Assembly (NCBI GenBank): GCA_009829735.1
Contig: CM020618.1
Location: 30,418,894 to 30,482,893, forward strand
Length of the DNA stretch: 64,000 bases
Reading direction: 5' to 3'
From: Pyropia yezoensis
Taxonomy: Eukaryota; Rhodophyta; Bangiophyceae; Bangiales; Bangiaceae
Positions within the stretch are counted from its first letter, which is position 1. Each line of letters starts with the position of its first letter. The notes under the pieces were generated by a model, which saw only the letters and a program-made list of their open reading frames with translations, did no database searches and was not told the DNA's origin. The position numbers were made by a program, and so were the translations under genes. Shown here piece by piece: positions 7,917-58,719 of this stretch.

Positions 7917-8558
7917 TGTGGCGTTCTGAGCCCCTGGGACCGTTGGAACCCGGGAGACTGACTTGGGACCCGGCTGGCAGCGTTACGTGGAACCACGCGC
8001 TGGCCGAGGATCCCTGCATCGGTGGCCCGGGGCAGTGGCGACACGCCCGGTGCCCTGATTGGTCACCCGGAGCGGTGGACTTGCCGGGTTGGGGCATACT
8101 GACCTTCGGGTTATTTGTTTGATTTTTCGCATTTGTTTTCCTTGCGTGATTTCGTGTCTTTCCCCTTTTTCCCACTGGGTTTTTTTCGGGGATTGACATT
8201 TGTGTGTGGGGGGATTTCGCTTGCTTTTTGTGTGTTGGCCCGGTGAGCGGCCGGTGCCTTGCTGGCACTTGGCCCGCTGGGGGCGCCCTCTGGGGGCCTC
8301 GCTCAGGGCCCCTGGAGGGGCCAGGGGGGGAGGTTCTTGAGGGGTGCTCCGGGGTTCTCCCCGGGGCCATCTTGTAAAATCAACAGTACTTTGGGTTCCT
8401 TCTCCCTCGGGCTTTTGTCCTGTTTACCTTTGCCTCGTATCGTGGCGGGCGAGTGGATCAGCAAAGGCTCTTACCTGTTCCTTCCTGGGCTTCGGACTGT
8501 GGTCTCTGTGTGTGGTTGTGGTTTCTGGGTCCGGGAATCTGGGTCCCATAACGCTACA
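7917..8558 (+). repeat. 5' LTR of element 1
   Basis: 642 bp, TG...CA. It differs from the 3' copy at only a handful of positions (for example GCGTTC versus GCGATC near the start and a 2-bp GT indel near the end), so the insertion is recent on the family's time scale. Confidence 0.95.
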
Positions 8559-8562
8559 TTTA

Positions 8563-8699: not shown

Positions 8700-10405
8700 A
8701 TGACGGACCCTGGCCCTTCGGGCGGTCGAGGCCGTCGTGCGCCGTCGGACGTTTCGATGGTTACTCCCGCTGGCCGTGGCCGCGGCGGTCCCTCGGGTCC
8801 GTCGAACCGTGGTAGAGGCGGGCCGACGGGGATTCCACGTCGAGGGACAGCGCCCCCGGGTGGGATCCGGGCTACAATGGGTCAGGATTTACGTGGGAAC
8901 GCGGGTTCCGAGTCAGGGACCCGAGTTCCACCTTCGGCTACTGTTGCTGGGTCCCCGGATATTGTGTCTACACTGGAAACGTTTCGAGATGAGATTTTGG
9001 CTACTGTTTCCCAAGCCCTGAGCCAGAGTCCTGCTGGCCAAGGTGGGTCCCGTGATACCAGTCGTTCCGATCGTTCTCGTTCCCGCCGTCACCGACGCCG
9101 TCATCATTCGAGTGGCTCCTCTTCCTCTTCTTCCTCTGGTACCACATTTTCATCCGTCTTCGACGAGGAGGACCTGGAACCCATTCAGAACCCACGAACT
9201 GAGCCCCAGGTAATCAAGTGTTCCGACGATCGTCCTACTAGGGTCCTGGACTATCGTACGTACCGCCTACGGAACAAGAAATCGACCTATGGAACGCGAG
9301 AAGCACGCAAGATGAGACGGGTTGCTCGTAACATAAAACACTCTTTTGCTGGGTACCCTAATTTCTCTGGGAACGAGGCCCTTAAGGTGTTCACGTGGCT
9401 CCGCAAACTGGTTAAGGCATGTAACGATAATGGGGCTTCCGAGGGCATGGCCCTGTACGCGATCCCTCATTTCCTGTCTGGGGACGCGGAACTGCGGTAT
9501 ACTCGGGCCCTTCCGGACTCCTCAAGCGCATTAGGTGGCGCTTCGATCACGAGTTACCCCGAGGCTGTTAACTGGTTCCTGGAAACGTATGCTGAACCCC
9601 ATGCGCTGGCACTGGCGAAGGATAAGTTCAGTAGGGCCGCCAAGGAACCAGATGAGGGGATCGAGGCCTTTGCGGTACGCTTACGGGGTCTGACGGAACT
9701 ATGTGGGAACATCCACACCGAAGGTACCATGAAACAGCAGCTGATTCAAGGGCTCCCTGAGTACCTACGTACGGACGCATTTGTTTACAATATCCTGACC
9801 GTACGTACCAGCAGCTGGTAACGTTTACTGCGGGCAAGAACAAGGCGGCTACCGAGGTTATCAAGATGGCCCGAGGGTCCTCTGTGACCAAGGCTGGCCC
9901 CTCTGGAACCGTCCGCAGACCCACTGAACCGAGGCCTAATCGTTCGTTGGACTCGTCCCCGTTGATGGCTGTTAATCCTATGGGCCCCTCTACGATTCTT
10001 AAGGGCCCCCTTGAGACGGAAACTGAGAAGAACAGGTCAAGTCAGGTGTTTGGGTACAAGGGACCCACGCCCCAGTTCGGGGGAGTACGTACCATGGACA
10101 GTCGACGCCCGTACCGTTGTTACCTTTGTTGGGAACCGGGTCCCATGGCCCATCAATGTTCCATGTTGTCTGAGGTCCAACGGAAAGCGGTTCTCCAGGC
10201 CCGGGACTCGTTCCTTGCGGCCACTCGTGGACGGAGTCAGAGCACCGATGTAAAGCCGAACGCGGACCGCCAGTTCCATCGTCACATCCGGGTTGCTATG
10301 GTTCAGGCCCTTTGTGAAGGGATAAACCTCTCGGATGACGAGGCGGACCAAGGGTACCAAGTGAACGACGGTTCCCAGGAGCCGGGACCCTCGGGAAAAG
10401 AGTGA
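8700..10405 (+). pseudogene. gag: gag of element 1, one frame break
   Basis: ATG at 8700 starts a basic, Arg/Gly- and Ser-rich N-terminus followed by a capsid-like region (KVFTWLRKLVKAC, then YPEAVNWFLETYAEPHALA). The frame ends prematurely at 9821. The nucleocapsid part continues one frame over from about 9800 to the TGA at 10403. The zinc knuckle (CYLCWEPGPMAHQC) has its Cys residues at positions 1, 4 and 14 but Pro where the CCHC His should be, so zinc binding is probably impaired. Gag would form the particle shell and package RNA. Homologous capsid motifs occur in elements 2 and 3. Confidence 0.85.
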
Positions 10406-10408: not shown

Positions 10409-11613
10409 GGGGCGGAATCGAAACGGTCCCCTCCCCATGGTCGGGATAGTACCTGCTCGTTTGCAACTGCGTTGGGGTTCTCCAAGATCTTTAAGGGCCC
10501 CGTTGTACCTGTACGTTCTGAGTCTCCTATTACTTTGAAAACCCCTTGTTCCTGTTTGCCCTCTCTGGCACGACGATGCAAGTCTGGGCTCCGTCGTCGG
10601 ATGGGGATGAAGAAGCCCTATGGGTTCAAGGGTACCTTCCTTGTACTGCGTAAGAGAAACTTTGCTTTGAACGCTTTGGTTCGATTGGACAAGGAGGAAC
10701 CGAAGGACACCACTGCCATCCTGGACACTGGTGCCGGGCCAAGCGTGGTACGTGAGGACATCCTCCCTGACGGGTGGCGACGACTGGCGTCGAGAGCCCC
10801 CAAGTCGACGCATGTGTGTGACGCCTCGGGTCAGTTGTTACGGGCCCGTGGGATCGTGGAACTATCGGTGATTGTAAACGGGAAGCCGATGGAGTTCGAG
10901 TTCCTCGTGGTCACGGCCCTCTCGGTACCGTTGATCCTCGCGATGGACTTTCAGAAGGAACACGTTAAGGCGATCTACCCTGGAACAGAGTCTGTGCTTT
11001 GGAACCTGGGTTTCCTGACGTACGCCAAGAGAACGTGGGACGGAAAGACCCAGAACGCTTTTCCTGTGAAGGGTAACCCCGTACGCCAAGATCCTTCTGC
11101 CCTGTACCTCTCTAAGCGTGTAACTTTGGCACCCCGATCCCTTCAAGCGGTCTACGTCAAGTGCGGAACGAATGGACGTTGTTTACTTCATGAACGACCG
11201 CACAAGATGGCTAAGAAAGGGCTCCGTCTGCATAACGCCCTGGTTGACGTACGGACCCGGCGGGACTTCCCGATCCACATCATGAACATCTCGAACCGGG
11301 CGGTCAACTTGCCCAAGAACTTCGCCGTAGGCCTCGCTATCCCGTACGATGGACCCATGCTCGAGGTCCCCACTGGTTACTTGCCGGTCCCTAGTGAGGG
11401 GGCCGACCCTGTTGTTACGCTGGGAACCGCGCAAGGTAACACGTCGGGTCAAGCGTCGTCACCGGGGGGTGAGACCCCTGAAGGATCCGATGGAACCACG
11501 GTACCCGAGCCGGATACAAAGGGAAAGTCGTCAGACGGAACCCCGGTCAAGATGCCCAAGGTGGCGTACGAGCTGATCCCGCCTGAAATGCACCAGGCTG
11601 TACGTGAACTTTG
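10409..11613 (+). CDS. Protease domain of element 1
   Basis: A retropepsin-type aspartic protease that would cut the polyprotein. The active-site signature is ILDTGAGPSVV near 10720-10750, followed by the hydrophobic flap and core (VTALSVPLILAMDF near 10910). It is in frame with gag's nucleocapsid, separated only by the UGA. The frame ends wrongly at 11683. A one-base loss in a G run near 11612 shifts it relative to reverse transcriptase, whose frame starts there. Confidence 0.85.
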
Positions 11614-12740
11614 GAACGCTACAAGGGTCTTTGGGACGGACAACTGGGACGTATTGACGAGACACCCCACCGGATCACTTTGAAGGACGGGGCCAAGCCT
11701 ATTCGTTCCCAACCGTACCGTACCGGGCTCCATCATCGGGACCCGATCAAGGAACAAGTGGAAAAGCAGACCAAGCTCGGGGTCATTGAACCGTCTCAGG
11801 CTGAGTGGTTGTTCCCGGTTGTCTTGGTCCCCAAGCCCGATGGTACCCCGCGGTTCTGTGTTGACTACCGCAGACTGAACGATGTGACGGTTAAGGACAC
11901 GTACCCGTTACCGAGGATGGACGACAGTATCGACTTTCTGGGAGAGGCAACCGTGTTTTTGATGTTGGACGCGAACTGTGGTTACTGGCAGATCCCTGTT
12001 GCTGCCGAGGACCAGGATAAGACGACGTTCACGTGTCACGAAGGAACCTTCCGGTACATCAGGCTCCCCTTTGGTCTTACGAACGCTCCGGCTACGTTTC
12101 AACGGGCCATTGATATGATCCTGTCCGGGGTTATGTGGAAGACGTGCCTCGTGTACCTGGACGACGTTATTGTTTTCTCTAGGAACCCTACAGAACACCT
12201 AGAACACCTGGAAGAGATCTTTGGGCTACTTGCTAAGGCCGGTGTTTCCCTAAAGGCCAGCAAGTGCTTTTTGTTCCATTACGAGGTTGAGTACCTTGGC
12301 CACATCGTCGGCAAGGGCCAGCTCCGCGTGAACGAGAAGAACCTAGTCGGGCTACGGGAAGCCAAGACACCGAGATCCAAGAAGGACCTACGCAGTTTCC
12401 TGGGAATGTGTATCGTTTACCGTCGCTTTGTTAAGGACTATGCTCAGGTGGCTCGCCCTCTGTTGGCTATGACAAGTACCAAGGTACCCGACCCTCTGCC
12501 TCCTTTTACTCCGGCTCAGACGGACGCGTTCGAGGAACTCAAGTACCGTCTAACCCACACACCGATCCTGGCGCTTCCGCGACGCTCGGGCCAGTTTATT
12601 GTGGATACCGACGCGAGCGCTGCCCAGATTGGTTGCGTTTTGCTACAGGAACAAGCGGACGGGGCCTACAAGCCCGTGGGTTACTGGAGCAGGGTCCTGA
12701 CACAAGCGGAACGGAACTATAGTACCACGAAAAACGCGAG
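11611..12740 (+). CDS. Reverse transcriptase and start of RNase H, element 1
   Basis: The Ty3-type RT is complete: GTPRFCVDYRRLN, then the fingers/palm region, FGLTNAPATFQRAID, and the catalytic YLDDVIVFS near 12150-12175, followed by the thumb and connection (YLGHIVGKG). RNase H starts with FIVDTDASAAQIGCVLLQ near 12595-12650. A single-base break in an A run near 12735 moves the remaining RNase H into the integrase frame, and this frame then terminates at 12786. Its role is to copy element RNA into DNA. Confidence 0.9.
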
Positions 12741-14687
12741 TGTCTTGCCGTTGTCTGGGCTCTCTTTTTGTTACGACCGTACCTAAAGGGGACACGCTTC
12801 GTTGTACGCGCGGACCACACCGCTTTAAAGTGAATGTTGCACATGGACGGAGCCCATTGACGTTTGGCTCGCTGGCGACTCCGGTTAGCCGAGTACAATT
12901 ATACCGTTGAGTCCCGTCCTGGTCAACACCACCATGCTGCAGACTTTATGTCAAGGCTAGAATCTACGGGACACGACCGGGGACCTATACCTGAGGAGAT
13001 ACCTTCCCTGTTAACTATGGCCAACTTTGTTACCGGATGGGTCCGTCCGAACTTCAAGACACACAAGAGGTACCCACCGTTGTCGGTTTACAGGATCCTC
13101 AAGGCTCAGGGAAACGACAAGCGTTGCAAGGAACTTCAGGAAGAGATGAACCGGAACGCTAACTCGCGGTACGGGGAAGCACCTGAAGGGTTACTTGTGC
13201 GACTGGCTCCTCTGGACCGAGCCGTTCAGGTTGTGGTCCCCAAGGAACTACAGCAGGAGGTACTGACTTTGGAACATGAACCAGGCCACGCGGGACACCC
13301 AGGGATCAATAAGATGTATACCTCTATGAGACGAACGTTCTACTGGGAAACTATGGTGGCCGACGTGCACGCTTTTGTTACCAACTGTACCGCTTGTTCC
13401 AAGGGCAAGGTTCAAGGAAGGCGACGTACCAATCCGTTGAAGTTGTTCCCCGCCACGGATCCCTTTAAGGACGTATGCCTTGACCTGTTGGGACCCTTGC
13501 CCGAGACAGTGAACGGGAACAAGTACCTTTTGGTTATCGTGGACAGGTTTACCAAGCTGACCAGAGTGGTACCCATCAACAGTCAGGACGCGGAAGTGGT
13601 GGCCTCGGCCTTTTTGGATACATGGGTCGCTTCTTACGGGCCCCCGGAAACGCTACTGACTGATAACGGGCCCCAGCTGGTGTCCACGCACTTCCGTGGC
13701 GTCTGCGGTATGTTTGGGATCAAACACGTAACGTCTACCACGTACCATCCGCAGACCCAGGGACAAGTGGAACGCTTTAACCGTACTATCGTGGCCCAGT
13801 TGCGTACGTACATTGAAGACCATCAGGACCAGTGGGACGAATTGGTTTCCGTGCTTACCGTGGCGTACAACACAAGGCCACAACAGAGTACCGGCGTGGC
13901 CCCTTTTGAGTTCGTTATCCCTGAACGCGTGCGTACCTTCGCACTGGACCGGCTCCCAGGGTCCCCGTATCCCAAAGAGTTCAGTGGCAACGCACGCCAG
14001 GTACGCGAGATGAGACGGGCCCACCTCAGGAACCTAGCCTTCACGGTACGCAAGAACCTTGACCTGGCCCAGCGTCGGTACAAGAGGGGTTACGATAAGC
14101 GGGTTACGCCTGTGAACGAGACCCTTCGCGTGGGAGACTGGGTGTACGTGGATACCAACGACGACAGTCGGAAGAAACTGGACCAAAGAGTCAAGGGTCC
14201 CTATCGGATCGTGGACCGAGATGGACACACGTTCACAGTACTGGTTGAAAGGATCCGTGACAGGGTTAGTAGTGACCATGTGGCCCGTGCACCCACACCC
14301 TCTGGCCAGATGGACTCCACGTCCATGTTGCATGGTCCGCAAGAACCGGTTGTACCCCTGGACCACGAGGACTCTGGCACCCCTTTTGTTTGGGAACGTT
14401 TCTTGGGGCACGAAAGGGACCAGGAAGGGAACCTTTCGCCTTTGGTACGCTGGTGGGGTTACGCCCAGTCCGAGGATACCTGGGAACCTTACCACAAGTT
14501 CGACAGGGCCAAGGTTATCCAGTACTGTGAACGTGTTGGTACCGAACCTCCACTGCGGGAGGAGGAGGCCATCGTACTACTGGAACCGTTCAAGGCTATC
14601 TATGCTGTGTGGCCCTGGAACCTTGAACCGGGTGCGGATATGTGGCCCCGTTGTTATCCCTGGGGCACGCACCTTGGACCTGGTTAG
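12741..14687 (+). pseudogene. RNase H end, integrase and chromodomain of element 1, two TGA codons
   Basis: In-frame TGA codons at 12831 and 12858 interrupt the RNase H tail; from 12864 the frame is open. Integrase has a zinc-binding region (HEPGHAGHPG ... CTACSKG), the catalytic core with D in LDLLGPLP near 13485, D in LLTDNGPQ near 13660 and E in QGQVERFN near 13765, and a C-terminal SH3-like part (GDWVYVDTND). A chromodomain follows at about 14386-14520 (FVWERFLGHERD ... LVRWWGYAQSEDTWEP). Chromodomains of this position direct integration to particular chromatin in chromoviruses. The frame closes at TAG 14687. Confidence 0.9.
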
Positions 14688-15022: not shown

Positions 15023-16783
15023 TCATACCCTCGCTAACCTACTACCTACGGAAACGACTGTCGGGACGAATAGCCTCTTCCTCGTCCATGTCGTCCCGGC
15101 CACGGACGCGAGAACCTTCCTGGGTCCCCGTCCAGGCACGTCGCGCGGCCGCCTCGGCGTTACCCTACTCGGCCCCAAGGTCCCCACGGATCCCGTTCGG
15201 TCAACCAGGTTCAGTAGCCCTTTGTAGTCCGGGTAACTGGAGCCCCCTTGAACACGGGTCCACTCGGCTACACGGGCCCCAAGTTTAACCGTCGCGTGAA
15301 GGGAAGCCGACAACAGGGGCCCGACATGAGCGTTAGCAAGGACGTCCGCGGGGCCCCCAAAGAAACTACGTAGCCCAAGAACCGCCGTGGTAGTCAGGTT
15401 TCCCTCGAGGTCCATAAGTTCCGCGTCGGGCACGTCCCCATGGTCCAGTAGGTTAGCCACGTACACGGCACGACCCATGGGAGGGTTGCAACGATGACCA
15501 GCTGACCCCGATGACCGAGCGCCCGGGAACCCAGAGGGACCTGCGGGAACCACCTCGTCCGACTGATCAGCGTTCCCGTCCTGGGCCCCGAGGATCTCAC
15601 GCCCTTCCAGTACGTCCGACGAGTACGGTAGGTCCAGTGGGGCCAGGTCCTCGTCTACCAGGGCCGCCCATACCCCGTCCCGACTCTCGAACCGAATCCG
15701 GACGAAAGAACCGCGATCCTTGCGACGTTTCCCGGAAGAAAGGAGACGCGCACGGAGCCCCGCCACGGAAACCACTTGGTCACTGAGGGTCAGAAGGGCG
15801 TCCAGGTCCCGTACTGCGGCCTCGTCCACGCCACCGGGACCCTGACAGATGGTACGGGTACCAACGCGCTGGATCCACGTACGCAGGGGCCGAGAGAAGA
15901 GGCACAGGTAACTCTCCCGCCGGGCGAACTCAAGCAGGTACACCGCACAGTTGGTAGCCCTTTCCGTCCGAAACACGTACCAAGCGAACTCGTCCGACGA
16001 ACCAAGAAGTTCCGTGAAGTAACACTGGACCGCAGGAAGTTCCACAAGGGCCCCGAACGGTAGTTCCACGTTCTCGAACCAGTGAGGAACCCGAACGTAA
16101 TGGAGCCCACGGGTAGCCGCTGAACAGCTGGGGAACTCTTGTTGGTGCCACCCGACCAGGAACCGACTCTTGTCACAATGGTGCCGACTGAACACCAGGT
16201 TAGGTTGGGTCACTTGGTACCCGGGATGGTTCAGGTACGGGGGAGACCCGATCAGGTAACAGCTTGAAGGTGCAGCAGGTAGGGTCCCTTGGGTGAGTTC
16301 CATGCGGACCGCCTTGAACCGTTCGACGTACCCGACCTCGTCCGCGTGCCGTACAACCGTGATCGATGGGGAACGGTCCGCAAGGACAGGGATCCGAGCT
16401 TCCGGCATCACTGCCATCTGCTTACGAAACGAGTTACCCGGACAGCTCCCGTCCACGGCTCGAAGGATCCCATGAGCCCGGGTACTAGTAACCCAACCTC
16501 GCGCCTCCTCCCGACGCCACGCTGTAACCGTCTCGGGTCCGAAGTCCTCAGGAACCACGCCAACTATGGCCGCGTACAACTGGCCCGCCCCGGTTTCCTC
16601 TTGGTTCGCCGGTAGTACGTCTGGCCCAGTAGTGGGACCACCTTGGGTAACACGTACGCCTTGACCACTTGGTACGCCGGACCCAGGAGCAGGGCCACCT
16701 TGAACCGCTTGGTCACCTTGAAGGTTGGGGGCCCCAGGGCCCGCGCCAGCAGGCGAACCCGCCGCGGCGCTGCCGGTATCCAT
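15023..16783 (-). CDS. Opposite-strand ORF (aORF) of element 1, 586 aa, unknown function
   Basis: The first in-frame ATG is at 16783; the frame is open without a break to 15023. The N-terminal ~75 residues are Gly/Pro/Ala-rich and probably disordered. A folded part follows with VPEDFGPETV, RIPVLADRS, VGYVERFKAVR, a conserved VPHWFENVELPFGALVEL, then DLAPLDLPYSSDVL and VYVANLLDHGDVPDAEL near the C-terminus. There is no signal peptide or membrane segment, so it is not an envelope protein. It lies between pol and the 3' LTR, pointing at pol, and is homologous along its length to the ORF of element O and apparently remotely to that of element 2. It is intact although gag-pol of the same copy is broken. 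Function is unknown. Confidence 0.9.
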   Translation of the reverse strand: MDTGSAAAGSPAGAGPGAPNLQGDQAVQGGPAPGSGVPSGQGVRVTQGGPTTGPDVLPANQEETGAGQLYAAIVGVVPEDFGPETVTAWRREEARGWVTSTRAHGILRAVDGSCPGNSFRKQMAVMPEARIPVLADRSPSITVVRHADEVGYVERFKAVRMELTQGTLPAAPSSCYLIGSPPYLNHPGYQVTQPNLVFSRHHCDKSRFLVGWHQQEFPSCSAATRGLHYVRVPHWFENVELPFGALVELPAVQCYFTELLGSSDEFAWYVFRTERATNCAVYLLEFARRESYLCLFSRPLRTWIQRVGTRTICQGPGGVDEAAVRDLDALLTLSDQVVSVAGLRARLLSSGKRRKDRGSFVRIRFESRDGVWAALVDEDLAPLDLPYSSDVLEGREILGAQDGNADQSDEVVPAGPSGFPGARSSGSAGHRCNPPMGRAVYVANLLDHGDVPDAELMDLEGNLTTTAVLGLRSFFGGPADVLANAHVGPLLSASLHATVKLGARVAEWTRVQGGSSYPDYKGLLNLVDRTGSVGTLGPSRVTPRRPRDVPGRGPRKVLASVAGTTWTRKRLFVPTVVSVGSRLARV

Positions 16784-17353
16784 GGGGGCCCGGGTGGAGG
16801 GGAACGCGGTGGTACGTGTGGAGGGGTACGTGGGCACGGAGACGGAGAAGGGGAACGAGGAAACGGGGGAGAACGAAGTGGCCACGGGAAGCGTCGCGGG
16901 GAAGATGGTGCAATGGAACCCGGGTGCTGGGGACGAGGGAACCCGTGAGGGTGCTCTTATCCACTGGCCCCTGCGTTCCAAATGGTACCTGGGCTGCGCC
17001 CACGTTCCGCTGGCCCCCGCCTGTGCCCCTACACCGCGTCACACCCCCCTGGCGTGCGGCGCCACATGGGGAGGGCGACGGGGAGGAGGAATGCAGGTGG
17101 GCGGCCGGCGCGGGCTGCGCCACACCCCCCTTTGGCTCCCCTGCGCGTGGCCCACACCTCTCCTGTACCCGCCCCTGGCCAGTCTGAACGGGTTCCCCTT
17201 GCACGAGACACTTGTCGGGGGGCCCCTGTTGACAGACACTGGCCCCACAACCCATCCATTGTGGCCCTGTTGTAACCCTGTGAGACGCTCCCCAGTCCCT
17301 TTCCTCGGTTTCCTTGTTGGCCGGCGGGACGCTCGGCCCTAGTGAGGGGGCCA
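16784..17353. promoter_or_regulatory. Conserved noncoding leader/promoter region of the element 1 aORF
   Basis: Between the aORF start and the 3' LTR. From about 17040 to 17353 the sequence is closely matched by 48163-48480 (reverse complement) in element O, including GGCGGCCGGCGCGGGCTGCG and GAGACACTTGTCGGGGGG, although no ORF is shared. Such conservation next to the ATG suggests the promoter and 5' UTR of the opposite-strand gene. The last 15 bases (17339-17353, CTAGTGAGGGGGCCA) serve as the polypurine tract on the plus strand. Confidence 0.5.
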
Positions 17354-17997
17354 TGTGGCGATCTGAGCCCCTGGGACCGTTGGAACCCGGGAGACTGACT
17401 TGGGACCCGGCTGGCAGCGTTACGTGGAACCACGCGCTGGCCGAGGATCCCTGCATCGGTGGCCCGGGGCAGTGGCGACACGCCCGGTGCCCTGATTGGT
17501 CACCCGGAGCGGTGGACTTGCCGGGTTGGGGCATACTGACCTTCGGGTTATTTGTTTGATTTTTCGCATTTGTTTTCCTTGCGTGATTTCGTGTCTTTCC
17601 CCTTTTTCCCACTGGGTTTTTTTCGGGGATTGACATTTGTGTGTGGGGGGATTTCGCTTACTTTTTGTGTGTTGGCCCGGTGAGCGGCCGGTGCCTTGCT
17701 GGCACTTGGCCCGCTGGGGGCGCCCTCTGGGGGCCTCGCTCAGGGCCCCTGGAGGGGCCAGGGGGGGAGGTTCTTGAGGGGTGCTCCGGGGTTCTCCCCG
17801 GGGCCATCTTGTAAAATCAACAGTACTTTGGGTTCCTTCTCCCTCGGGCTTTTGTCCTGTTTACCTTTGCCTCGTATCGTGGCGGGCGAGTGGATCAGCA
17901 AAGGCTCTTACCTGTTCCTTCCTGGGCTTCGGACTGTGGTCTCTGTGTGTGTGGTTGTGGTTTCTGGGTCCGGGAATCTGGGTACCATAACGCTACA
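17354..17997 (+). repeat. 3' LTR of element 1
   Basis: 644 bp, TGTGGCG...GCTACA, nearly identical to the 5' copy. Flanked on the right by GTGTT. Confidence 0.95.
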
Positions 17998-48732: not shown

Positions 48733-48993
48733 ATGGAGCCCGGCCGCGCCGCGACGAGCGCGTCTGCTGGCAAGGGCTCGGCGGTTCCTGGCGGTCCCAG
48801 CGTGCCTGTGGGTATGGCGGTACCTGGGGCCCAAGGCGGTCCCGTCGGTCAAGGTGCAGCGGGTCAAGGGGCTCCCGGCGGTCAAGGCGTACCGGTCGCG
48901 GGGCCAGGCGGTGACAACATGGAACAAGAGGAACGTGGTGCGGGTCAAGCGTATGTGACGGTCCATGGCATGGTACCCGAAGACTTTGGTCCC
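48733..48993 (+). pseudogene. aORF of element O, 5' part, cut by element 2
   Basis: ATG at 48733 (MEPGRAATSASAG) opens the Gly/Pro-rich N-terminus corresponding to that of the element 1 aORF. It ends at MVPEDFGP, exactly where element 2 was inserted (target duplication GTCCC, 48989-48993). The gene continues at 58720. Before the insertion the product would have been about 591 residues. Confidence 0.9.
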
Positions 48994-49684
48994 TGTAGTG
49001 GTTTTACGTACCTTAGGCGCCTAGCACCCAGAACACACAGAGAAACGACCCACCAAGAACGCGGGGAGACCGGAGAGATACAGAACCGCCGACCGCCTGG
49101 CTGGTTCACGCGGGGATCCGCGACCAGGACGACAGTGTTCAAGGACACGCAAGTCTGTTTTTTTCGAAGGGGGAAGCAACGCGCACCCCCACGCACAGTC
49201 ATACCCTCTCTCACCCGCACCCAGCAACCCTCCAACCCGGGCCACGTGCGAGCCAATCAAAACCCTCCAACATGTCCGGAGGGCCCCCTCCCCCACGGAT
49301 CATCCCTGCCAGCGGGGCAGGAATCTCCAAGATACGGGGGAAGAGGAGCCCCGCCGGACATCAGTGCCAACACTCAAGATCTCCCCAATCTCACAATCAC
49401 GCAAAATATACAATCAAAATCCAAACCCCAAATGCATCCCATCCCGGAATATTGACCAATGGCCAATTCCGGTCAGGGGAAATTCCCATACACTGGAAAT
49501 CCCAACATGGGCTCCAGAACCAATGGCGACCCGGTCCCATCTCCATAGGAGGGGACCAATCGGAAGCCAGTAAAATCCCAAGGGGCCAAATCGGCCCCGT
49601 CCTCCTCACTAGGAAGGTGGGCACAGGGGTACGACGCGATCTCTTCGAGGTCCCCCTACGTGGAGGGCCCATAGGGTCCCTACA
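48994..49684 (-). repeat. 3' LTR of element 2
   Basis: 691 bp. Differs from the 5' copy by an 11-bp insertion near 49003 and a few substitutions. The adjacent 49685-49700, read on the minus strand, is the purine-rich GGAGGTGTGGGAAG (polypurine tract). Confidence 0.95.
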
Positions 49685-50324
49685 CTTCCCACACCTCCAG
49701 GGGGTTGCAACCCGCGACCCAGACACTGAGGGAAACTTTCCCCCAGCGCCAAACGGGCGGTGGAGGCAATGCCACTTGGCAGCATGCCGTCCCCACCGCC
49801 GAGTGTACCCATCCCCACGGGGGGAGTGGATGACACTGGGTCAGCTCGGTCCCATGGTTTTCTCCCCTGGGGAGACAATCGTGTCCGTCCCCGTTGAACG
49901 ACAGGGTGGGAGATGTGTGGAGACACCCCCCTCAAAACCACCACCTGAGGGGTGGGGGACGCAGCAAGGATAGGGCCTGTCGCCTCCCACGGCCCTGCCC
50001 GCACAGGGTGGGGCCGTGAGGGGACTGGCTCTCCTAACGTAGCCGGGAGCGAGGGGTTTAGGGGCCTCTTGTGTACCCCCCCCTCGGCCCCTTGTCAGGG
50101 GGCTGAGGGGTAGAAGAGGGCCGCCTGTCCACCCGAGAGGGGTGGATCGTAGCGAGGGGGGCGGCAACGGGTGCTAGCCGCGAGGACGGCCTCCGTCCCC
50201 ACCACTCCCGCTACTCCTCCTCGCTGCCACCGGTCTGCGTGCGTCTCCCTCGCCCTCACCCTAAGGGTGGGGGTGGCATCCACACTCTTCCCCCCCCCCC
50301 GTCCCCATTGGAGAGCGGTCAGTC
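49685..50324 (+). promoter_or_regulatory. Leader region of the element 2 aORF
   Basis: 640 bp between the 3' LTR and the aORF ATG with no conserved frame. By position it is the promoter and 5' UTR of the opposite-strand gene. It includes a pyrimidine-rich stretch before the ATG. Confidence 0.4.
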
Positions 50325-52115
50325 ATGGCTACCCCGTCGGGGCAGTTGGGTAACCCCGCTCCCATGGGTGAGGGTGGCGGGTCCGCTTCCCCTCCGGCTC
50401 CTTCCTCCCCCCGTGGCCCTTCGGACACGGGGTTGCCACCCGCCTCTCCCGACGACGTCCCGATGGACGACGCCGGGAGTGGCCGGGGTGATGCCGGTCC
50501 GGCTTCGCCGGCCGAGGTACCTGTTCCGCCGTCGGCGGACTCACGGGGGCCGGGCCCTTTCGGGGAAGTCATCCCCTTTCACAAGGAGTGGCCCTACCCT
50601 CACCCGCATCCCGGCGCGGTCACCGACCGGTGGGTTCAGGTGGATCCACGCCGCATGACGGGGGTGTGGACAACATTCCGCCATCTCTACCCGGACCTCT
50701 ACGAGGTCCCGATTGGGACGCCGACGGACTACCCCGTGCTCCGCTTTGCGGAGGATTGGAAGCTCGCTCAGCAGCTGGATGATGCGTGCTCGCGCCCCCC
50801 GTTACCACCGGGGACAATGCCGGTCTTCGACCTGGCGTATTACCCGGGTCCGTTACCGGTCATTGGGCAACGCCCTCGCGGTTACTTCCTACGCCAAGCG
50901 TTAACGGAGCATCGGCACCGTCGGCGCCCTGGCATCTTCGCCTGCGCAGAGCAGCGGGAGGTAGAGTGCTTCTCCCACGGAGAGCGCCTCAAGTTGTACC
51001 CAGTCATCCCCTCTTGGTGGAGCGACTACGAGGTTCCACGCGGCATGGCCGCGCGTATTGGCAACTTAGTTGCCGTGCGAGGGAGTCGGCTGATGGCCGA
51101 CGGCCCGGACTCGGCGGCCAGAGCAGCTCTGAACGCCTGCTGGCTGGTGGAGGTAGCCGACGTCTTGCTGTCTTCGGGGTTGTACTACGGACATGCTTGG
51201 CTTGTTACGATCCCCCTTCTGCGGGCTCTCCAAGAGAGCCCTATTGACGTGTTGTGTCAGGGTAACCCTGACTCCGCGGCGTACCTGCGTGCACTTCTCC
51301 ATCTCATCGAGAAGGTTCATCAAAAGGCCTTGCCTTCCTTCCTGGGTCTTCCTCTTCGAGCTCGTGCATTGGTACGATGCGCGAAGTCTTTGTCCGCGGA
51401 CGGTGTTCTCTTCTTGGAGGAGGGGTTGGGTCACGAGGAGCTACCCTACCCTCCGGGGTTGATGGCCGCCACGCGGGTGCCCAACCCGGAACCCCGCATG
51501 GAGGAGGAGGGGCCTTGTCTCCCAGGGTTCTGCCAGGAGCGGTATGGCCCGTCTATGCGGCCGAACTCCCCGAGGGGGAGTCGTGCTCAAGGCGCGTCAT
51601 CTTCTGGGCGTTCCTTTGGAGCGCCCCCTCGGGGGAACTATCCCCCCGGTGAGGAGGTTCGGTCGCCCAGCGGACGGCGGGCAACGGTCCCTGAGCCAGT
51701 GGCTTTCTTCCGTTGGGGCGGTCCGCCTTTGGCGATTCCTCGACCTATCCCGGGTACTACCGTAGCGGCATTGGGGCGGGTCTTTGATCCACCCCCCCCA
51801 TCCCTTGGGGATGCCGTCGAAGACTCCCTCGTCATGGGGCTATGTCGGGCCTACACGAGCCTGGCTAACGACATGGTGGCGATTGTCACCACACGTCGGG
51901 ACTGGCGGGATATTCCGCCGGTGGCGTTGCCACTACTATCTCAGTCGGCGCTCTCCGAGCGCCTGGACCGAGAACTCGGGAGAGCTAACATGGATACCAT
52001 GTTGCAGATCCCGAGTTTGTCCCTCCGGGGCGCAGCCAAAGCCGCATACGGAGGTGGAGGACATGGCCCTCGATACCATGATGGGTCCCAGTCCTATGGG
52101 CACCGGGGTTACTGA
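50325..52115 (+). CDS. Opposite-strand ORF (aORF) of element 2, 596 aa, unknown function
   Basis: Intact from ATG 50325 to TGA 52115. The first ~80 residues are Pro/Gly/Asp-rich and disordered. A folded core follows (VPIGTPTDYPVLRFAEDWKL; LYPVIPSWWSDYEVPRG; LNACWLVEVADVLL; HAWLVTIPLLRAL; HQKALPSFLGLPLRARAL), then a Pro/Arg/Gly linker and an Ala/Leu-rich C-terminal part ending in Gly/His/Tyr. The order and spacing of VLRFAEDW, IPSWW-DYEVP-G and the helices after it parallel VVRHADEV and VPHWFENVELPFG in the element 1 aORF, suggesting remote homology. There is no signal peptide or membrane segment. The 3' end faces that of pol at 79 bp distance. Function is unknown. Confidence 0.85.
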   Translation: MATPSGQLGNPAPMGEGGGSASPPAPSSPRGPSDTGLPPASPDDVPMDDAGSGRGDAGPASPAEVPVPPSADSRGPGPFGEVIPFHKEWPYPHPHPGAVTDRWVQVDPRRMTGVWTTFRHLYPDLYEVPIGTPTDYPVLRFAEDWKLAQQLDDACSRPPLPPGTMPVFDLAYYPGPLPVIGQRPRGYFLRQALTEHRHRRRPGIFACAEQREVECFSHGERLKLYPVIPSWWSDYEVPRGMAARIGNLVAVRGSRLMADGPDSAARAALNACWLVEVADVLLSSGLYYGHAWLVTIPLLRALQESPIDVLCQGNPDSAAYLRALLHLIEKVHQKALPSFLGLPLRARALVRCAKSLSADGVLFLEEGLGHEELPYPPGLMAATRVPNPEPRMEEEGPCLPGFCQERYGPSMRPNSPRGSRAQGASSSGRSFGAPPRGNYPPGEEVRSPSGRRATVPEPVAFFRWGGPPLAIPRPIPGTTVAALGRVFDPPPPSLGDAVEDSLVMGLCRAYTSLANDMVAIVTTRRDWRDIPPVALPLLSQSALSERLDRELGRANMDTMLQIPSLSLRGAAKAAYGGGGHGPRYHDGSQSYGHRGY

Positions 52116-52194
52116 TGCATTGTAGGGCGCCTCGTAGAGGCGTCTCACGTAGTAGTCTGTTTCTTTTACCGATTTTCCTGAGGGAGATAGTTTG

Positions 52195-52746
52195 TTATCC
52201 TTCTTCTTCGATCCCCCCTTGGGGGAATAGTCGGGACACTTGGTCCCGTCCCTTGATGGGGAGCTTGTGCTTCCGGGCATATTTCAGGAGAGCTGCTTGT
52301 GGCACCCCCTTCTTGGGGTGCCAAGTATCCCCTTCGGGTCCGTGGCCAAACCGACGGACCCGGAAGTCCAAGTCGGGTTTCCCGTTGTCGTCTTCCACCC
52401 ATTGGTGGCCGACGATCTGCTCGAACACATCCTTCTTCGAGGTTTCCTCGGGGCACTCATTGAATGCGTCACGGGCTTCCCGCGCCAGCTTCCACACTGG
52501 ATCCCCTGCCTTAGGCGGGGGAGCGCGTGTGACATTGTCACTACTCTGGGTCTGTTCTCCCGTAGGGGTTTCAATGAGAAACCGTTGACCGTCAGTGCGT
52601 AGCACCATATATGGCCCCTTCGCCTTAGACGACATCTTGGTCCGCCCCTTAGTATAGGATTTCACATAAACCCAATCCCCTTGAGACATGGCCTCATTGT
52701 CTTCTCGAATACCCGCGTCATAGACACGCTTGTAGGCCAGTTGGGC
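52195..52746 (-). CDS. Integrase C-terminus and chromodomain-like end of element 2 pol, after a TAG
   Basis: In frame with the main pol ORF and separated from it only by TAG at 52747-52749. It contains the SH3-like GDWVYVKSYTKGRTKM and KGPYMVLRTDGQRFLIETP, and a chromodomain-like tail (FEQIVGHQWVEDD ... RVRRFGHGPEGDTWHP). In element 1 the corresponding codon position encodes an ordinary residue, so the TAG is probably a nonsense mutation. Confidence 0.85.
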   Translation of the reverse strand, partial: AQLAYKRVYDAGIREDNEAMSQGDWVYVKSYTKGRTKMSSKAKGPYMVLRTDGQRFLIETPTGEQTQSSDNVTRAPPPKAGDPVWKLAREARDAFNECPEETSKKDVFEQIVGHQWVEDDNGKPDLDFRVRRFGHGPEGDTWHPKKGVPQAALLKYARKHKLPIKGRDQVSRLFPQGGIEEEG

Positions 52747-55700
52747 CTAATCCAAGTTCGTCCTAATCCTTGGGATTAGGTTGCGCAACTCTTTCACGTA
52801 TTGAACCGCCGCCGAATCGGCGTCGGGTTCCTCCGTGTCCACTGAGCGTACCTTAGGTAAACGTTCAATATTCGAGGCCTCCAATCGCCGAGGGCTTACG
52901 AAGGTCAGTGGGGCAACCCCAGTACTCGAATGTACCTGCATATTATATGCAGTCGTCAGTAGGGACACATAGCGATCCCATTCCCGTGGGTGCTCGGACG
53001 AGTACGTCCGTAGCTGTCGCATAATCGTCTTGTTATACCGTTCCACCTGACCATTGGTCTGGAGGTGATATGGGGTCGTGAAGTTGGTGGCGATCCCCAG
53101 GAGCCCCATGACTCCTTGGAAGTACACGGCAGCGAACTGAGGTCCGTTGTCCGTGAGCGTAGAATCCGGGATGCCGTAGGCAGCCACCCGATAGTCAATG
53201 AATGCCGAAGCTACCCCAAGGGCAGTGGTGTCCGACAGTGGGACGGCCCTCACCAATTTGGTGAAGCGATTAAACATTACCAGGAGCATGGTGTGACCAT
53301 TCTCCGTCTTCGGGAGCGGGCCCAACAAGTCCATCGCCACGGCTTGGAATGGCTCCCGCGCGGGGAAGAGCTTCATAGGAGACGTGTGCCTCTTGTCCGT
53401 TATGCGATTCCGAGTGCATCCTGGGCAGTTATAAACATACCCGTATACGTCCGCCACTAGGGCGGGCCAGTAAAAATACTGCCGCATCGTACGATACATC
53501 TTCCGAGACCCCGGGTGACCCGCCGTGGGCGCGTCATGGTACATTTCCAGAACCCGCTTTTGAAGCGACTCTGGAACGACCCATTGGTTGTTCCCCCTGA
53601 GGAGGGAATGGCGACACAGTACACCATCGTCATCTTCGAAGAAGAAGGCATTGCGTTGCCAACGGGCATCCTTCGGAGAGACCATAGGCCCCTCCAAGCG
53701 ACGCTGCTTGCAAAACCCATCCGAAGCCTGGGCCTCAATGAGCTCTCGGAGCGTAATCTTGCCGAGGCCCTTAGGGCTCCGGTCCGTAAGGGCCTTTGCT
53801 GACCTCGTCACCGCTAGAACGGGGATTTGATCATTCAGAGGCGTCTTATCCAAGCCATCCGTAGGAAGGCGCGATAGGGCATCAGCCACCTTGTGGTCCT
53901 TACCCGGCTTGTGCTTAATCTGGTACGAATATTCCGCCAAGCGGAGTCTCCAGCCCGTAAGGCGTCGATTGGGACTACTACTCGTCATCACCGAAGTGAG
54001 GGCGGAGTGCTCACAACGTACCAGAAATTCGGTCCCTTCCAAGAAGGAACGCAGGTAGGTCACAAACCATACGACCCCTAGGGCCTCAATTTCTGTGGCA
54101 CAATAGTTCCGATCCGCCGGGGATAAACCCCGACTAAAATACCCAACGGGGAGATACTCCCCGTCCTCTTGCTGCTGCAGCAAGGCACAGCCCAGTTGCT
54201 CATAGCTGGCATCCACCTCCACAATATAATGGGCTCCCTCCCGAGGGATTGCCAAAATAGGAGGCTTCAGAAGACAGTCGCGGAGCTCCTCGAACGCCGC
54301 TTGAGTCTCCTCCGTAGGAGGAGGTAGTTCCTTGGCCAGATGCGTACTAGTCAGCATGTTCAGCGGCCGAGCGATACGGGCAAAATTGGGGACAAACCTT
54401 CGGTATACCCCGCACATGCCCAAAAAACTCTTCAGCTGCGTTTGCGTACGCGGATAATGTAGCCCCTTCAGGGCCTTGGTGTTCTTCTCATTCACGGCCA
54501 CCCGCCCTGGGCGGATGACATGTCCCAGATATTCAACCTCCCTCTGGAAGAGGTGACACTTGGACGCCTTCAGCGATACGCCGTTATCCTTGAGAAGGCT
54601 CAATACGTGCTCCAGGTGGTGCAGATGCTCCTCGTCCGAGCGAGAGAAGACGATAACATCGTCTAGATATACTAGGCACGTCTGCCACTTCACGCCGGCC
54701 AGGATAATATCCATGGCTCGTTGAAAAGTCGCTGGAGCATTGCAGAGCCCAAAGGGCAACCGCGTACATTGCCACGTGCCCTTATGGCATGTGAAGGCCG
54801 TAAGGTGCCTATCCTCTGGGGCAATTGGGATTTGCCAATATCCGGCGTTGCAATCTAGGGTGCTAAACACCCTGACCTCCCCTAGGGAGTCCAAACATTC
54901 GTCCATCCTTGAGATGGGATACGCGTCCTTCACCGTGACGAGGTTGAGCCGCCGGTAGTCAATACAAAACCGGGGCGTGCCGTCCTGCTTCGGGACGATC
55001 ACCACGGGACTAGCCCACTCGCCTCTGGCGGGTTCAATAACTTCCAGTTTTCGCATTTGTTCCACTTGCTCCCCTTCCAGCTGGCGGTGCTTGTGCCCTG
55101 CCTTGTAGGGATGTTGCCTTACCGGGGTTGCCCCGGGTTTTAAGCGGATACGATGTGCGGTATTCTTGATGAGCCCAAGAGTACCATCCCATAGGGATTT
55201 GTATTTCTCCACCAGCTCCAAGAGCTGGCCACGTAGGGCTTCGGGGACCTCTCCTAGGTCCACCTCGGAATAAGCGCCCTCCGGCTTCGCCGCGGGACCT
55301 TCGCTCAGCTTTTGCATCTCTTCTTGAGAGACACTCAGTATAGGTCCTTGATAGGAGGAGATTGACGCCACCACCGCCCCAACGGGGAGGCGGACAATCC
55401 TTGGCGTAGGATTCATCATTTGCACGGCGTACGGGGCGTCCGAGTTTAGCTCCGCAGGGCCGTTGGCCACGTGAACCCCATACCTGGAGGCGATCCGGGG
55501 CTGCCCGGAAATAATCCCGTGGCCCTGGAACTGCCCTCTCACCTTCACGTGGGAGATAACCCCAGGCTTCAGCTTCAGCTTGTGACACAACCTGAGCTTA
55601 GCGGTCTTGGCCTTCGGAAAAGCGCACACAGAGCTCCACCTTGTGGGGCCGGATTCCACGTCCTCCATATCCCGAAGGATGGGGACGACCATCCCTGTCT

Positions 55701-56211
55701 TGAGGGTGACCGTTTGGTCCTCACAGGTGATGGTTTTCACTTCGGTATCTCCGAAGGAGTTACCTAATATGACGGGTACCGCCAGATTATCGATCACTCC
55801 AAAGCAGACGTAGGAAACTTGGTCTCCCACTTGTACGCCTAAGCGCACAGTTCCTCGAATGGGGAGCAACCCCCCATTCAGGTCAAAGTATAATACGTTC
55901 TCCAGCTCCCCTAGAGGCTGGAGCCTCAATCCCTTAGGGAGCAATGAGCTTCGAATCAGGGAGGGCCCACTGCCGGTATCCAGGACAGCGTGTAGAGCAT
56001 GCTCTACCCCTTCAGTAGCAAACAAGTGTACAGCCAGCTGATAGCTGGATGATGGCATAAACGCGCAAATAACATTTTCCCGTTTCACCCCCTTAGGGAG
56101 TGCCAGTAATGCAGGCTTATTCGTCCGAGGGCGGCGCAATACCCTCATCGGTCTCCCCTCATCATTGGACGCATTGGGGGAAACCGGTGGGGAACCGCCC
56201 TTCAGGCGTTT
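52747..56211 (-). CDS. pol: Pol polyprotein of element 2: protease, RT, RNase H, integrase
   Basis: Expressed by -1 frameshifting from gag; the frame is open from about 56230, with the first ATG at 56148. Protease: HAVLDTGSGPSLI and LAVPVILGNSFG. RT: GTPRFCIDYRRLN, FGLCNAPATFQRAMD and the catalytic YLDDVIVFS. RNase H: YIVEVDASYEQLGCALLQ and NYCATEIEALGVVW. Integrase: zinc finger HDAPTAGHPG ... CPGCTRN, then D in MDLLGPLPK, D in LTDNGPQF and E in GQVERYNK. All catalytic residues are present. The frame is 1133 codons from the ATG to the TAG at 52747, beyond which the C-terminal part continues. The element would be near functional apart from two stops. Confidence 0.95.
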   Translation of the reverse strand, partial: KRLKGGSPPVSPNASNDEGRPMRVLRRPRTNKPALLALPKGVKRENVICAFMPSSSYQLAVHLFATEGVEHALHAVLDTGSGPSLIRSSLLPKGLRLQPLGELENVLYFDLNGGLLPIRGTVRLGVQVGDQVSYVCFGVIDNLAVPVILGNSFGDTEVKTITCEDQTVTLKTGMVVPILRDMEDVESGPTRWSSVCAFPKAKTAKLRLCHKLKLKPGVISHVKVRGQFQGHGIISGQPRIASRYGVHVANGPAELNSDAPYAVQMMNPTPRIVRLPVGAVVASISSYQGPILSVSQEEMQKLSEGPAAKPEGAYSEVDLGEVPEALRGQLLELVEKYKSLWDGTLGLIKNTAHRIRLKPGATPVRQHPYKAGHKHRQLEGEQVEQMRKLEVIEPARGEWASPVVIVPKQDGTPRFCIDYRRLNLVTVKDAYPISRMDECLDSLGEVRVFSTLDCNAGYWQIPIAPEDRHLTAFTCHKGTWQCTRLPFGLCNAPATFQRAMDIILAGVKWQTCLVYLDDVIVFSRSDEEHLHHLEHVLSLLKDNGVSLKASKCHLFQREVEYLGHVIRPGRVAVNEKNTKALKGLHYPRTQTQLKSFLGMCGVYRRFVPNFARIARPLNMLTSTHLAKELPPPTEETQAAFEELRDCLLKPPILAIPREGAHYIVEVDASYEQLGCALLQQQEDGEYLPVGYFSRGLSPADRNYCATEIEALGVVWFVTYLRSFLEGTEFLVRCEHSALTSVMTSSSPNRRLTGWRLRLAEYSYQIKHKPGKDHKVADALSRLPTDGLDKTPLNDQIPVLAVTRSAKALTDRSPKGLGKITLRELIEAQASDGFCKQRRLEGPMVSPKDARWQRNAFFFEDDDGVLCRHSLLRGNNQWVVPESLQKRVLEMYHDAPTAGHPGSRKMYRTMRQYFYWPALVADVYGYVYNCPGCTRNRITDKRHTSPMKLFPAREPFQAVAMDLLGPLPKTENGHTMLLVMFNRFTKLVRAVPLSDTTALGVASAFIDYRVAAYGIPDSTLTDNGPQFAAVYFQGVMGLLGIATNFTTPYHLQTNGQVERYNKTIMRQLRTYSSEHPREWDRYVSLLTTAYNMQVHSSTGVAPLTFVSPRRLEASNIERLPKVRSVDTEEPDADSAAVQYVKELRNLIPRIRTNLD

Positions 56212-57923
56212 CCCGAAGTTGATAACTCAGATGAGCTCCCCTTAGGGGAACTCGCTCGCTCTTCCTTCCCCGTCGGGGAGGGCACGACAGCAGCAACCGC
56301 CCCACTCGCACGAGCAGCGGCTCGAGCCGCTCTGCGCTCGGCGCGTGCCTTGGTCATCCGGTTCTGAGTCTCCCCAGGGAGGTGTGGGCAATCTGCCATC
56401 CAGTGTGATGTATTATTGCAGATATGGCAGGGGAAGGGCTCTCGTTTCCCGTCCGTCCCCCGTGACCCCCCAGAGGGTCGTGATTCCCTGTAGGAAGAAG
56501 CAAACGCCTCCCCCACCTCCGGGTGGGACGACGTAACGGCTGCCAGAGCGCGACGCGCCATACGACGGGCGTGGCGCTCTGCGTCTTCCTTAACCTTAAG
56601 CTCTGCGGCGGCGGCCTGAATCCGCCGTCGAAAATCTCCTGCGCGTTGGGCATATTGCACCACCAGCTCAATAGGAGCATGAGGGTGGTCAGCTACGTAG
56701 TTCCGCACCTCGTGCCGAATCTCCCACCATGTGCCTTGAATATAGCGGGCTCGGACCTGGCCCGAAGTTTGTATGTATCCACACTTAGCGTGGAGTTCCA
56801 TGAGACGGCGGTGAAACCCCGTCTCTGTCTCATCCTCCTCTTGGGAGGCGCCATTAAAAATGGCCTCCTGTTCATTTAGGAGATGCTCATCTGCGTACAT
56901 GCGCAAAAGCCAGATCACAAGTTCCAAATAGGAAGTTACTTCTCCAGTACGCCGGCTGTGATCGACGGACGGGCGGATTCGATAAAGGTCCCTCTTCAAG
57001 GGATCCTTAGTAAATTCGGGGAGGAGGAGCAAAGCTCGCCCCTCTGAGAGGCCGTTATCATTCGCCGCCTTCACGAAGCGGTTGAGAAATTCGAAGACTC
57101 CCAGAGGAGGGTCTCCCCCCCACTCACAATCGCGACCAAATATGCTGGACAGGTCCTTACGCTTCTTACCCAGGCCTTTGGCCTCGGTTCCCGATACTCG
57201 GTTGTCCTTGTTCTTGAGAGCTTAGGTCTGACAATCCAGAAGACTCGCATAGCGGTCATCAGTCGGAATAATCTTCGGGGGAATCTCCCGTAGGGGGACT
57301 CTCCCCGGTCCTGCCTGAGCGGAAACCGCTCGGACGACAGGTCGCGAGCACCGACGGCGCTCGGGAGGCGAAGCCTCCCCTCCGGAATAATCCGAAGTCG
57401 ACTCAAGTGACGAGCTGGGACGCCGGCCACGCTGGCGCTCTCGCTTCGTCACGCTTCGTTCCATAAAACTCAACCGTTGGTTGAGCGGGGTTAGGAGGCC
57501 GCTAACAGCTTCCACCATCGCTTTCTTCCATTCCTCCGTAGGAGTATCCGATCCAGGAGCCACAAACGCTCGGGGCGTCTCCTTAGGAGACGATGCCCCC
57601 ACAGCGGGAACAGGAGGGGTGAGCGTTCCCTCAGAACCCATCCCCGCCACGGGATGGACCCCAGGGAGGTCGCCGAGGCCGATTGAATTCCCCCCCTCGC
57701 GTCCCGTCCGCGGCGGGAAGAAAGGTTCGCCCAATGGGCCCCCCGAACCGATTTTCAGCGAGGGTAGACGAGTGGTCACCCTACGGGTGGCCAGGTCGTC
57801 CAGTCCAGCCCCGAGGGCGTGAGTCGGAAGAGCAGCTCCCGTCGCGCTCTCCCTCGTCACGGACGAACCGCCCTCAAGAACTCCCGTCTCCCCCCGAGGG
57901 GGATTCTTCTTGTTATCTGACAT
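56202..57923 (-). pseudogene. gag: gag of element 2 with one internal TAA
   Basis: ATG at 57923. The N-terminal part is Pro/Gly-rich, then basic and Ser-rich. TAA at 57222-57224 interrupts the frame just before the capsid-like region; the matching codon in element 3 gag (DCETYALHNK) encodes Tyr. Downstream, FEFLNRFVKAANDNGLSEG and YLELVIWLLRMYADEHLLNE are capsid-like. The nucleocapsid carries a perfect CCHC zinc knuckle (CHICNNTSHWMADC) at about 56400-56440. Gag stops at TGA 56202, six bases after the frameshift heptamer. Confidence 0.9.
56208..56214 (-). promoter_or_regulatory. -1 ribosomal frameshift heptamer G_GGA_AAC
   Basis: Read on the minus strand the heptamer is GGGAAAC, in the exact zero-frame phase (G_GGA_AAC) required for tandem slippage. 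The gag TGA follows one codon later, and the pol frame is entered by -1. The following GC-rich sequence includes CGGT-TCCCC-ACCG, a small potential stem-loop. Confidence 0.8.
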
Positions 57924-58019
57924 CACGACTACCGCGTTTCCTTAGGGAGGACAGAGCACAACCACAGAAAGAGTACGAAGAAGGGGTAGACCCCTTTGGC
58001 CAGAAGGAACCTAGTCCCC

Positions 58020-58037
58020 TCCCCCGCTGATCCACCA
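58020..58037 (-). other. Primer-binding site, element 2
   Basis: TGGTGGATCAGCGGGGGA on the minus strand, two bases after the 5' LTR. It matches 16 of 18 bases of the site in elements 1 and 3. Confidence 0.75.
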
Positions 58038-58039
58038 AA

Positions 58040-58719
58040 TGTAGTGGTTAGGCGCCTAGCACCCAGAACACACAGAGAAACGACCCACCAAGAACGCGGG
58101 GAGACCGGAGAGATACAGAACCGCCGACCGCCTGGCTGGTTCACGCGGGGATCCGCGACCAGGACGACAGTGTTCAAGCACACGCAAGTCTGTTTTTTTC
58201 GAAGGGGGAAGCAACGCGCACCCCCACGCACATTCTTACCCTCTCTCATCCGCACCCAGCAACCCTCCAACCCGGGCCACGTGCGAGCCAATCAAAACCC
58301 TCCAACATGTCCGGAGGGCCCCCTCCCCCACGGATCATCCCTGCCAGCGGGGCAGGAATCTCCAAGATACGGGGGAAGAGGAGCCCCGCCGGACATCAGT
58401 GCCAACACTCAAGATCTCCCCAATCTCACAATCACGCAAAATATACAATCAAAATCCAAACCCCAAATGCATCCCATCCCGGAATATTGACCAATGGCCA
58501 ATTCCGGTCAGGGGAAATTCCCATACACTAGAAATCCCAACATGGGCTCCAGAACCAATGGCGACCCGGTCCCATCTCCATAGGAGGGGACCAATCGGAA
58601 GCCAGTAAAATCCCAAGGGGCCAAATCGGCCCCGTCCTCCTCACTAGGAAGGTGGGCACAGGGGTACGACGCGATCTCTTCGAGGTCCCCCTACGTGGAG
58701 GGCCCATAGGGTCCCTACA
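58040..58719 (-). repeat. 5' LTR of element 2
   Basis: 680 bp, TG...CA. The right flank GTCCC (58720-58724) repeats the left flank of the element. Confidence 0.95.

Follow-up and report, generated by a model that had tools for sequence, protein, structure and literature searches.

A conserved gene antisense to gag-pol in red-algal Ty3/gypsy-type LTR retrotransposons, with a putative role as trans-regulator

Introduction

The closest described counterparts of the gene examined here are the antisense open reading frames (ORFs) of plant Ty3/gypsy elements, termed aORF-3R, namely: gene23 of Grande, the ORF of RIRE2, and TRP28 (PF04195) of Retand. They lie between pol and the 3′ LTR and occur in many copies, and their function is given as unknown (PMC7264820, PMC11963269). 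According to Vicient 2025, TRP28 antisense ORFs are present in 97% of Retand clusters and confined to flowering plants, defective Retand clusters have also been amplified, and Retand is a non-chromovirus lineage (PMC11963269). The Grande antisense protein is nuclear and is transcribed from its own promoter, and the Grande and Retand antisense proteins have been proposed as regulators of element RNA, DNA or transcription. Among proteins encoded by an antisense gene at the 3′ LTR, HBZ combines a regulatory role with a leucine zipper. Viruses of the HTLV type are described as having an antisense gene with its promoter inside the 3′ LTR, the Boty element of the fungus Botrytis as having an antisense ORF in the interval from pol to the 3′ LTR, and Athila and Bagy2 as carrying Env-like ORFs after pol that read in the sense direction, a part of which have membrane segments (PMC7264820).

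Here we describe antisense genes of this kind in three elements (1, O and E) within a 64-kb stretch of DNA from a red alga (the window; G000:C1:30418894-30482893, in a host genome of 107.5 Mb with 11 contigs, three of them large). They resemble the plant aORF-3R genes in place, orientation and high copy number, and defective copies have evidently been amplified likewise. The arrangement is common to Retand; however, PF04195 finds no match in 15 of the proteins at E values up to 10, the host is a red alga, and elements 1 and O have a weak chromodomain match. Boty has the same arrangement outside plants, in a different kingdom, and the likeness drawn here is one of arrangement. An antisense gene at the 3′ LTR is also what relates the present case to HBZ, a likeness by description, as no HBZ-type match was obtained in Pfam or the PDB. 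Athila and Bagy2 similarly possess an extra gene after pol, whereas the gene described here is antisense and four of its proteins show no membrane-type segment.

Results

Antisense genes in three elements of the window

The initial annotation had reported a long ORF between pol and the 3′ LTR of elements 1 and O, on the strand opposite to gag-pol. The ORFs, LTRs, pol domains and tblastn matches bear this out. Element 1 is organized as follows:

7917..8558, plus strand: 5′ LTR, 99.2% identical to 17354-17997
8700..10405, plus strand: gag region in two reading frames (8700-9821 and 9866-10405), with a degenerate zinc-knuckle-like stretch
10472..14687, plus strand: pol in separate frames, with a weak protease match, RT/RNase H, integrase and a weak chromodomain match (Pfam domains)
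15023..16783, minus strand: antisense gene, 586 aa (ORF open from ATG; homologues)
16784..17353, no strand assigned: block from the ATG to the 3′ LTR, a candidate promoter or leader site (retained at 92-97% identity where the region is short)
17354..17997, plus strand: 3′ LTR, 99.2% identical to the 5′ LTR

On the plus strand, protease, RT, RNase H and integrase are spread over several separate frames. A Pfam scan of the gag region gave no match, and its zinc-knuckle-like stretch, judged by eye, is degenerate with a displaced His. The antisense ORF had been called intact. It is indeed open over 586 aa, and the open frame extends past the ATG to 16981, from a TTG; however, its last ~48 codons (from about codon 538) are out of frame with respect to its relatives. 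The complete relatives of groups A-D (see below) share a C-terminal tail, SRVRGR(D/S)D and on, which is still visible in element 1 in the neighbouring frame (15197-15048), and the word intact therefore needs a reservation for this copy. Elsewhere in the window, the stretch at 1611-2472 matches itself many times, in direct orientation and with overlaps, at about 73-82% identity and apparently consists of tandem repeats.

Element O is interrupted by the nested element E:

48733..48993, plus strand: antisense gene of element O, N-terminal part (tblastn)
58716..60240, plus strand: antisense gene of element O, remainder, with one frame break near 59128-59189 (ORFs, tblastn)
60634..62829, minus strand: pol piece of element O, with integrase and a weak chromodomain match (Pfam domains)
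49013..58719, minus strand: element E, nested inside O, with LTRs at 49013-49684 and 58048-58719 (BLAST identity 99.3%; the true edge may sit a few bases further out than the BLAST limits)
50325..52115, plus strand: antisense gene of element E, 596 aa, a distant homologue of the element 1 gene (ORF, BLASTP, profile alignment)
52747..56148, minus strand: pol of element E, with RT, RNase H and integrase (Pfam domains)
56202..57926, minus strand: gag region of element E; its zinc knuckle scores below the cut-off (zf-CCHC, E 0.045)

The insertion of E splits the antisense gene of element O, whose pieces are 38%, 61% and 61% identical to the element 1 protein (P0001) by tblastn; these matches place the second part at 58716-60237. 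The antisense ORF of element E is a third homologue in the window, absent from the initial annotation. The gag frames of elements 1 and E are 36% identical over 126 residues (E 1e-19). A TTT(A)TGGTGGA(G/T)CAGC-like stretch adjoins the 5′ LTR in both element types (8559-8575, plus strand; 58026-58039, minus strand) and is presumably a primer-binding site common to the two.

Elements 1 and E are of the Ty3/gypsy type, each having an LTR pair around gag and pol with the order RT, RNase H, integrase, and the extra ORF, which is antisense to gag-pol, follows pol and precedes the 3′ LTR as in the aORF-3R class. The further assignment to chromoviruses made earlier rests on PF00385 matches at E 1e-4 (22.6 bits) in element 1 and at E 3e-4 (21 bits) in element O that are below the 25.1-bit Pfam cut-off, and the chromodomain is not among the Pfam matches of element E.

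Homology between the two families and their copies in the genome

The antisense proteins of elements 1 and E are 26% identical over 228 residues (BLASTP, E 8e-4). Alignment of the two families with hhalign, using profiles built from 7 and 8 sequences, gives a probability of 97.8% and an E value of 9.6e-13 over 359 columns at 19% identity. The RTs of the two elements are 60% identical and their integrases 43%, which indicates that the antisense genes of both share an ancestry and change more quickly than pol.

The proteins of elements 1 and E each have at least 76 matches in the genome. Among the matches listed, those of the element 1 protein mostly form groups around 90, 65, 55 and 52% identity; a few lie at 38-39%, and 25 of the 76 cover at least 490 of the 586 residues without a stop (hand count). 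Protein database searches returned six relatives of P0001 and seven of the element E protein (P0002), all without a name. Three of these relatives, P0006, P0010 and P0012, probably belong to other genomes, because their best genome matches among those listed do not exceed 57%, 53% and 42%, respectively. A protein search with a joint alignment retrieved no further protein, and none of the 109 pattern matches in viral contigs is a relative.

Orientation and linkage to pol

The position of the antisense gene relative to integrase was determined by cross-referencing 72 listed integrase places with 89 antisense pieces, leaving out a few small fragments and the match list of the E protein. Wherever an antisense piece lies 3′ of an integrase within 6 kb, the two are on opposite strands (35 of 35 pairs, none on the same strand). 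Thus, among the matches listed, the antisense gene is linked to 35 of the 72 integrase copies; the other 37 have no antisense piece entered within 6 kb. The opposite orientation was likewise found in 8 of 8 flanked copies of the E family and in 2 of 2 copies of the 38% lineage. It also holds for all 20 loci fetched with 7 kb of flank, although at one of them, L019, the pol is that of another element: an A-type 3′ half abuts a foreign pol whose RT and integrase are 35% and 25% identical to those of element 1. Seven pieces searched for pol near diverged antisense copies comprise four with pol on the opposite strand, two without pol, and one, L071 (G000:C2:1846031-1847031), in which an RT is on the same strand as the adjoining degraded 46% antisense copy and may belong to its own element or to a neighbour. 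No pol was found in L074, a 701-base piece beside a group C copy.

Across the 35 linked pairs, the identity ranks of integrase and antisense gene are correlated (Spearman 0.92; 0.90 on a 33-pair subset), and a p-value for this correlation would mean little because the copies are related. Together with the nearly equal dS of the two genes (see below), these ranks indicate, at the level of sequence comparison, that the antisense gene is inherited together with pol.

In groups A and B (L018 vs. L031 and L034), the LTR DNA (17354-17997 in the window) is about 95-98% identical despite a dS near 1 in both integrase and antisense gene. Measured in 150-base steps, A-B identity in the ATG-LTR block is 0.63-0.80 and climbs to 0.90-0.98 in the LTR. 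From these alignments, the likeness of the A and B LTRs is read as LTR exchange or recombination between families.

Selection on the antisense frame

Selection was estimated by the Nei-Gojobori method on 29 open ORFs (A, 9; B, 7; C, 6; D, 1; E, 6), drawn from 62 sources; those left aside duplicated the same places, contained stops, were truncated or went unused. Between groups, dN/dS is 0.24 (A-B), 0.29 (A-C), 0.35 (B-C), 0.32 (A-D), 0.43 (B-D) and 0.31 (C-D), ratios that are approximate since the between-group dS of 0.9-1.5 is near saturation; between the E subgroups it is 0.19. Within groups the means are 0.43 (A), 0.30 (B), 0.46 (C) and 0.20 (E), and single pairs range from 0.17 to 1.31, a wide spread that is expected because recent copies drift. 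A-B differences at codon positions 1, 2 and 3 are 0.25, 0.18 and 0.49. The initial annotation had proposed selection on the protein and had named dN/dS near 1 across many copies as a sign to the contrary. The group comparisons instead lie at 0.19-0.43, and the values for A-B (0.24) and the E family (0.19) together with the codon-position pattern uphold its proposal.

The signal is specific to the antisense frame. In the A-B comparison, the five other frames give dN/dS values of 1.44, 2.27, 1.23, 0.38 and 2.37, as against 0.24. The frame with 0.38 has 11-19 stops in groups A and B, and we take it to be a shadow of the real antisense frame. Each of the five frames is interrupted by 3 to 24 stops in all 29 ORFs. 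Two of them have just 3-6 stops in group B, where the longest open runs reach 369 aa on the same strand and 286 aa on the pol strand; these frames have 9-13 stops in group A and are therefore not conserved. Since none of the five is uninterrupted in any of the 29 ORFs, coding on the sense strand, which had been raised as an alternative cause of the match, does not explain it.

For comparison, integrase (8 A and 5 B sequences, first 500 codons) has an A-B dN/dS of 0.086 at a dS of 0.96, and the dS of the antisense gene is 1.05. Constraint on the antisense gene is thus about three times weaker than on integrase, and the two genes are similar in age. Constraint is unevenly distributed along it: the linker is the least constrained segment (0.36 for A-B, 0.62 for A-C), and the C-terminal part has an A-B value of 0.13, lower only in a 10-codon N-terminal stretch. 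In the A-C comparison the C-terminal part (0.24) is not set apart from the others (0.22-0.33).

In 19 loci (the 20 fetched minus L019; pol partial in two), the aligned antisense gene is stop-free in 14 and the RT-integrase stretch unbroken in 5 (hand count). It should be noted that these loci were chosen by their antisense-gene score, and no claim is therefore made from these counts.

Copies that have lost the core of the antisense gene

By a hand calculation from the coordinates of the genome matches, integrase and the ATG-LTR block are 2100 bases apart in element 1. This distance is 1028-1039 bases in seven A-type copies and 951 in one more; two copies with an 86% identical integrase give 1147 and 1143. 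All ten belong to the 37 integrases that lack an entered antisense piece. The ATG-LTR block itself is kept in such copies at 92-97% identity. In the one that was read, L075 (G000:C1:5413459-5414486), about 70 N-terminal codons are left, GTG replaces the ATG, and the core is replaced by about 700 bases that match neither element 1 nor L018. Judging from their shared spacing, the short-region copies have evidently multiplied, so that the antisense gene can be dispensed with in cis. No other observation argues as strongly against an essential gene; help in trans would account for it, and so would an escape from restraint.

Domain and structure searches

Profile searches and structure prediction, suggested as a check in the initial annotation, gave no credible match in Pfam, NCBIfam or the PDB and only poor models. 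The Pfam search covered the 15 proteins of alignments A1 and A2 at E values up to 10; RNA_pol_L, found in one A2 member at E 0.21, was dropped. The NCBIfam search covered five proteins. In the PDB profile search, A1 gave one chance-level match (CarH, E 0.34) and A2 none. AlphaFold models from the 7- and 8-sequence alignments have mean pLDDT values of 41 and 30, and a Foldseek search of the PDB with the first model returned 29 rows with a best E value of 3.0, so that none reaches E ≤ 0.001; no fold is therefore claimed. Four proteins were inspected for a membrane-type hydrophobic stretch and none has one, the largest 19-residue hydropathy means being 1.16-1.39.

Discussion

We consider it fairly probable (roughly 0.6) that the antisense ORF is a genuine accessory protein gene of Ty3/gypsy-type LTR retrotransposons, antisense to gag-pol, co-inherited with pol and encoding a trans-regulator. 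Position and orientation make a trans-acting regulator the most likely role for the protein; given that no domain was recognized, the models are poor and no fold was matched, the term regulator is used by analogy only. An antisense mRNA would start in or near the 3′ LTR, 16784-17997 being the element DNA upstream of the gene, and would be translated into a soluble protein. The predicted layout of this protein begins with a loose N-terminus rich in Pro and Gly, followed by a core, a linker under weak constraint, another conserved part towards the C-terminus and a charged tail. It may act in trans on the RNA, DNA or transcription of the element itself, in line with what has been proposed for Grande and Retand, and elements without the core would either borrow the protein from relatives or escape its action.

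The core-less copies bear on two other readings. That the protein is a self-limiting factor, which restrains related copies and so controls copy number without helping them, appears unlikely. Core-less copies do coexist with full ones and have multiplied, as if gaining by shedding a restraint, and the gene is less constrained than pol (0.24 vs. 0.086 for integrase, A-B), but help in trans explains the core-less copies equally well. An antisense RNA that is itself functional, pairing with the genomic RNA and exerting control by double-stranded RNA or interference, is a role of the kind discussed for plant elements (PMC7264820). It would agree with what L075, the core-less copy that was read, has retained: the DNA ahead of the ATG and the initial ~70 codons. 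However, third codon positions vary about twice as much as first and more than twice as much as second positions (A-B), and the between-group dN/dS is 0.19-0.43. Such codon-level selection counts against a role of the RNA only, since that role needs no open frame, and we regard it as quite improbable.

Two further readings fare worse. LTR elements are known to capture host genes (PMC7264820), and among the matches listed 53 of the 89 antisense pieces have no integrase nearby, leaving room for a stand-alone host copy. A captured gene, or alternatively a mere shadow of a sense-strand gene, is nevertheless highly unlikely: no credible relative exists in Pfam, NCBIfam or the PDB, the gene is linked to pol across divergent groups, and stops break each of the five other frames in all 29 ORFs. 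The gene follows pol as env does, and it is long and kept, which might suggest an Env-like protein or a displaced Gag; this is the least probable of the readings weighed. The antisense orientation and the lack of a membrane-type hydrophobic stretch in four proteins argue against Env, and against Gag stands the fact that elements 1 and E already have sense gag regions homologous to each other, of which that of E has a zinc knuckle and that of element 1 a degenerate one.

The preferred reading, an accessory protein gene encoding a trans-regulator, also bears on novelty. The gene had been called undescribed as far as was known. This does not hold for the arrangement, which is known in plants and in Boty; it stands for the protein family and for the red-algal host, as no description of this family and no case of a red-algal antisense accessory ORF was found in the open-licence PMC literature. 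This looks like a new protein family of the known antisense accessory-ORF kind. It is possible, though short of probable, that this new family is more specifically an antisense trans-regulator of red-algal Ty3/gypsy elements that arose independently of TRP28 and of the HBZ type, with the core-less copies as natural escape or dependence variants. The family would then be old, to judge from lineages at about 19% identity whose RTs are 60% identical.

The plant antisense accessory genes are still stated to lack a known function (PMC7264820, PMC11963269). The family described here, with no detectable relation to TRP28, is under clear purifying selection. As full copies stand beside copies that have pol and have lost the core, the role of such genes is open to comparison and to expression assays. 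If the more specific proposal were true, LTR elements in different kingdoms would repeatedly have arrived at an antisense regulator at their 3′ end.
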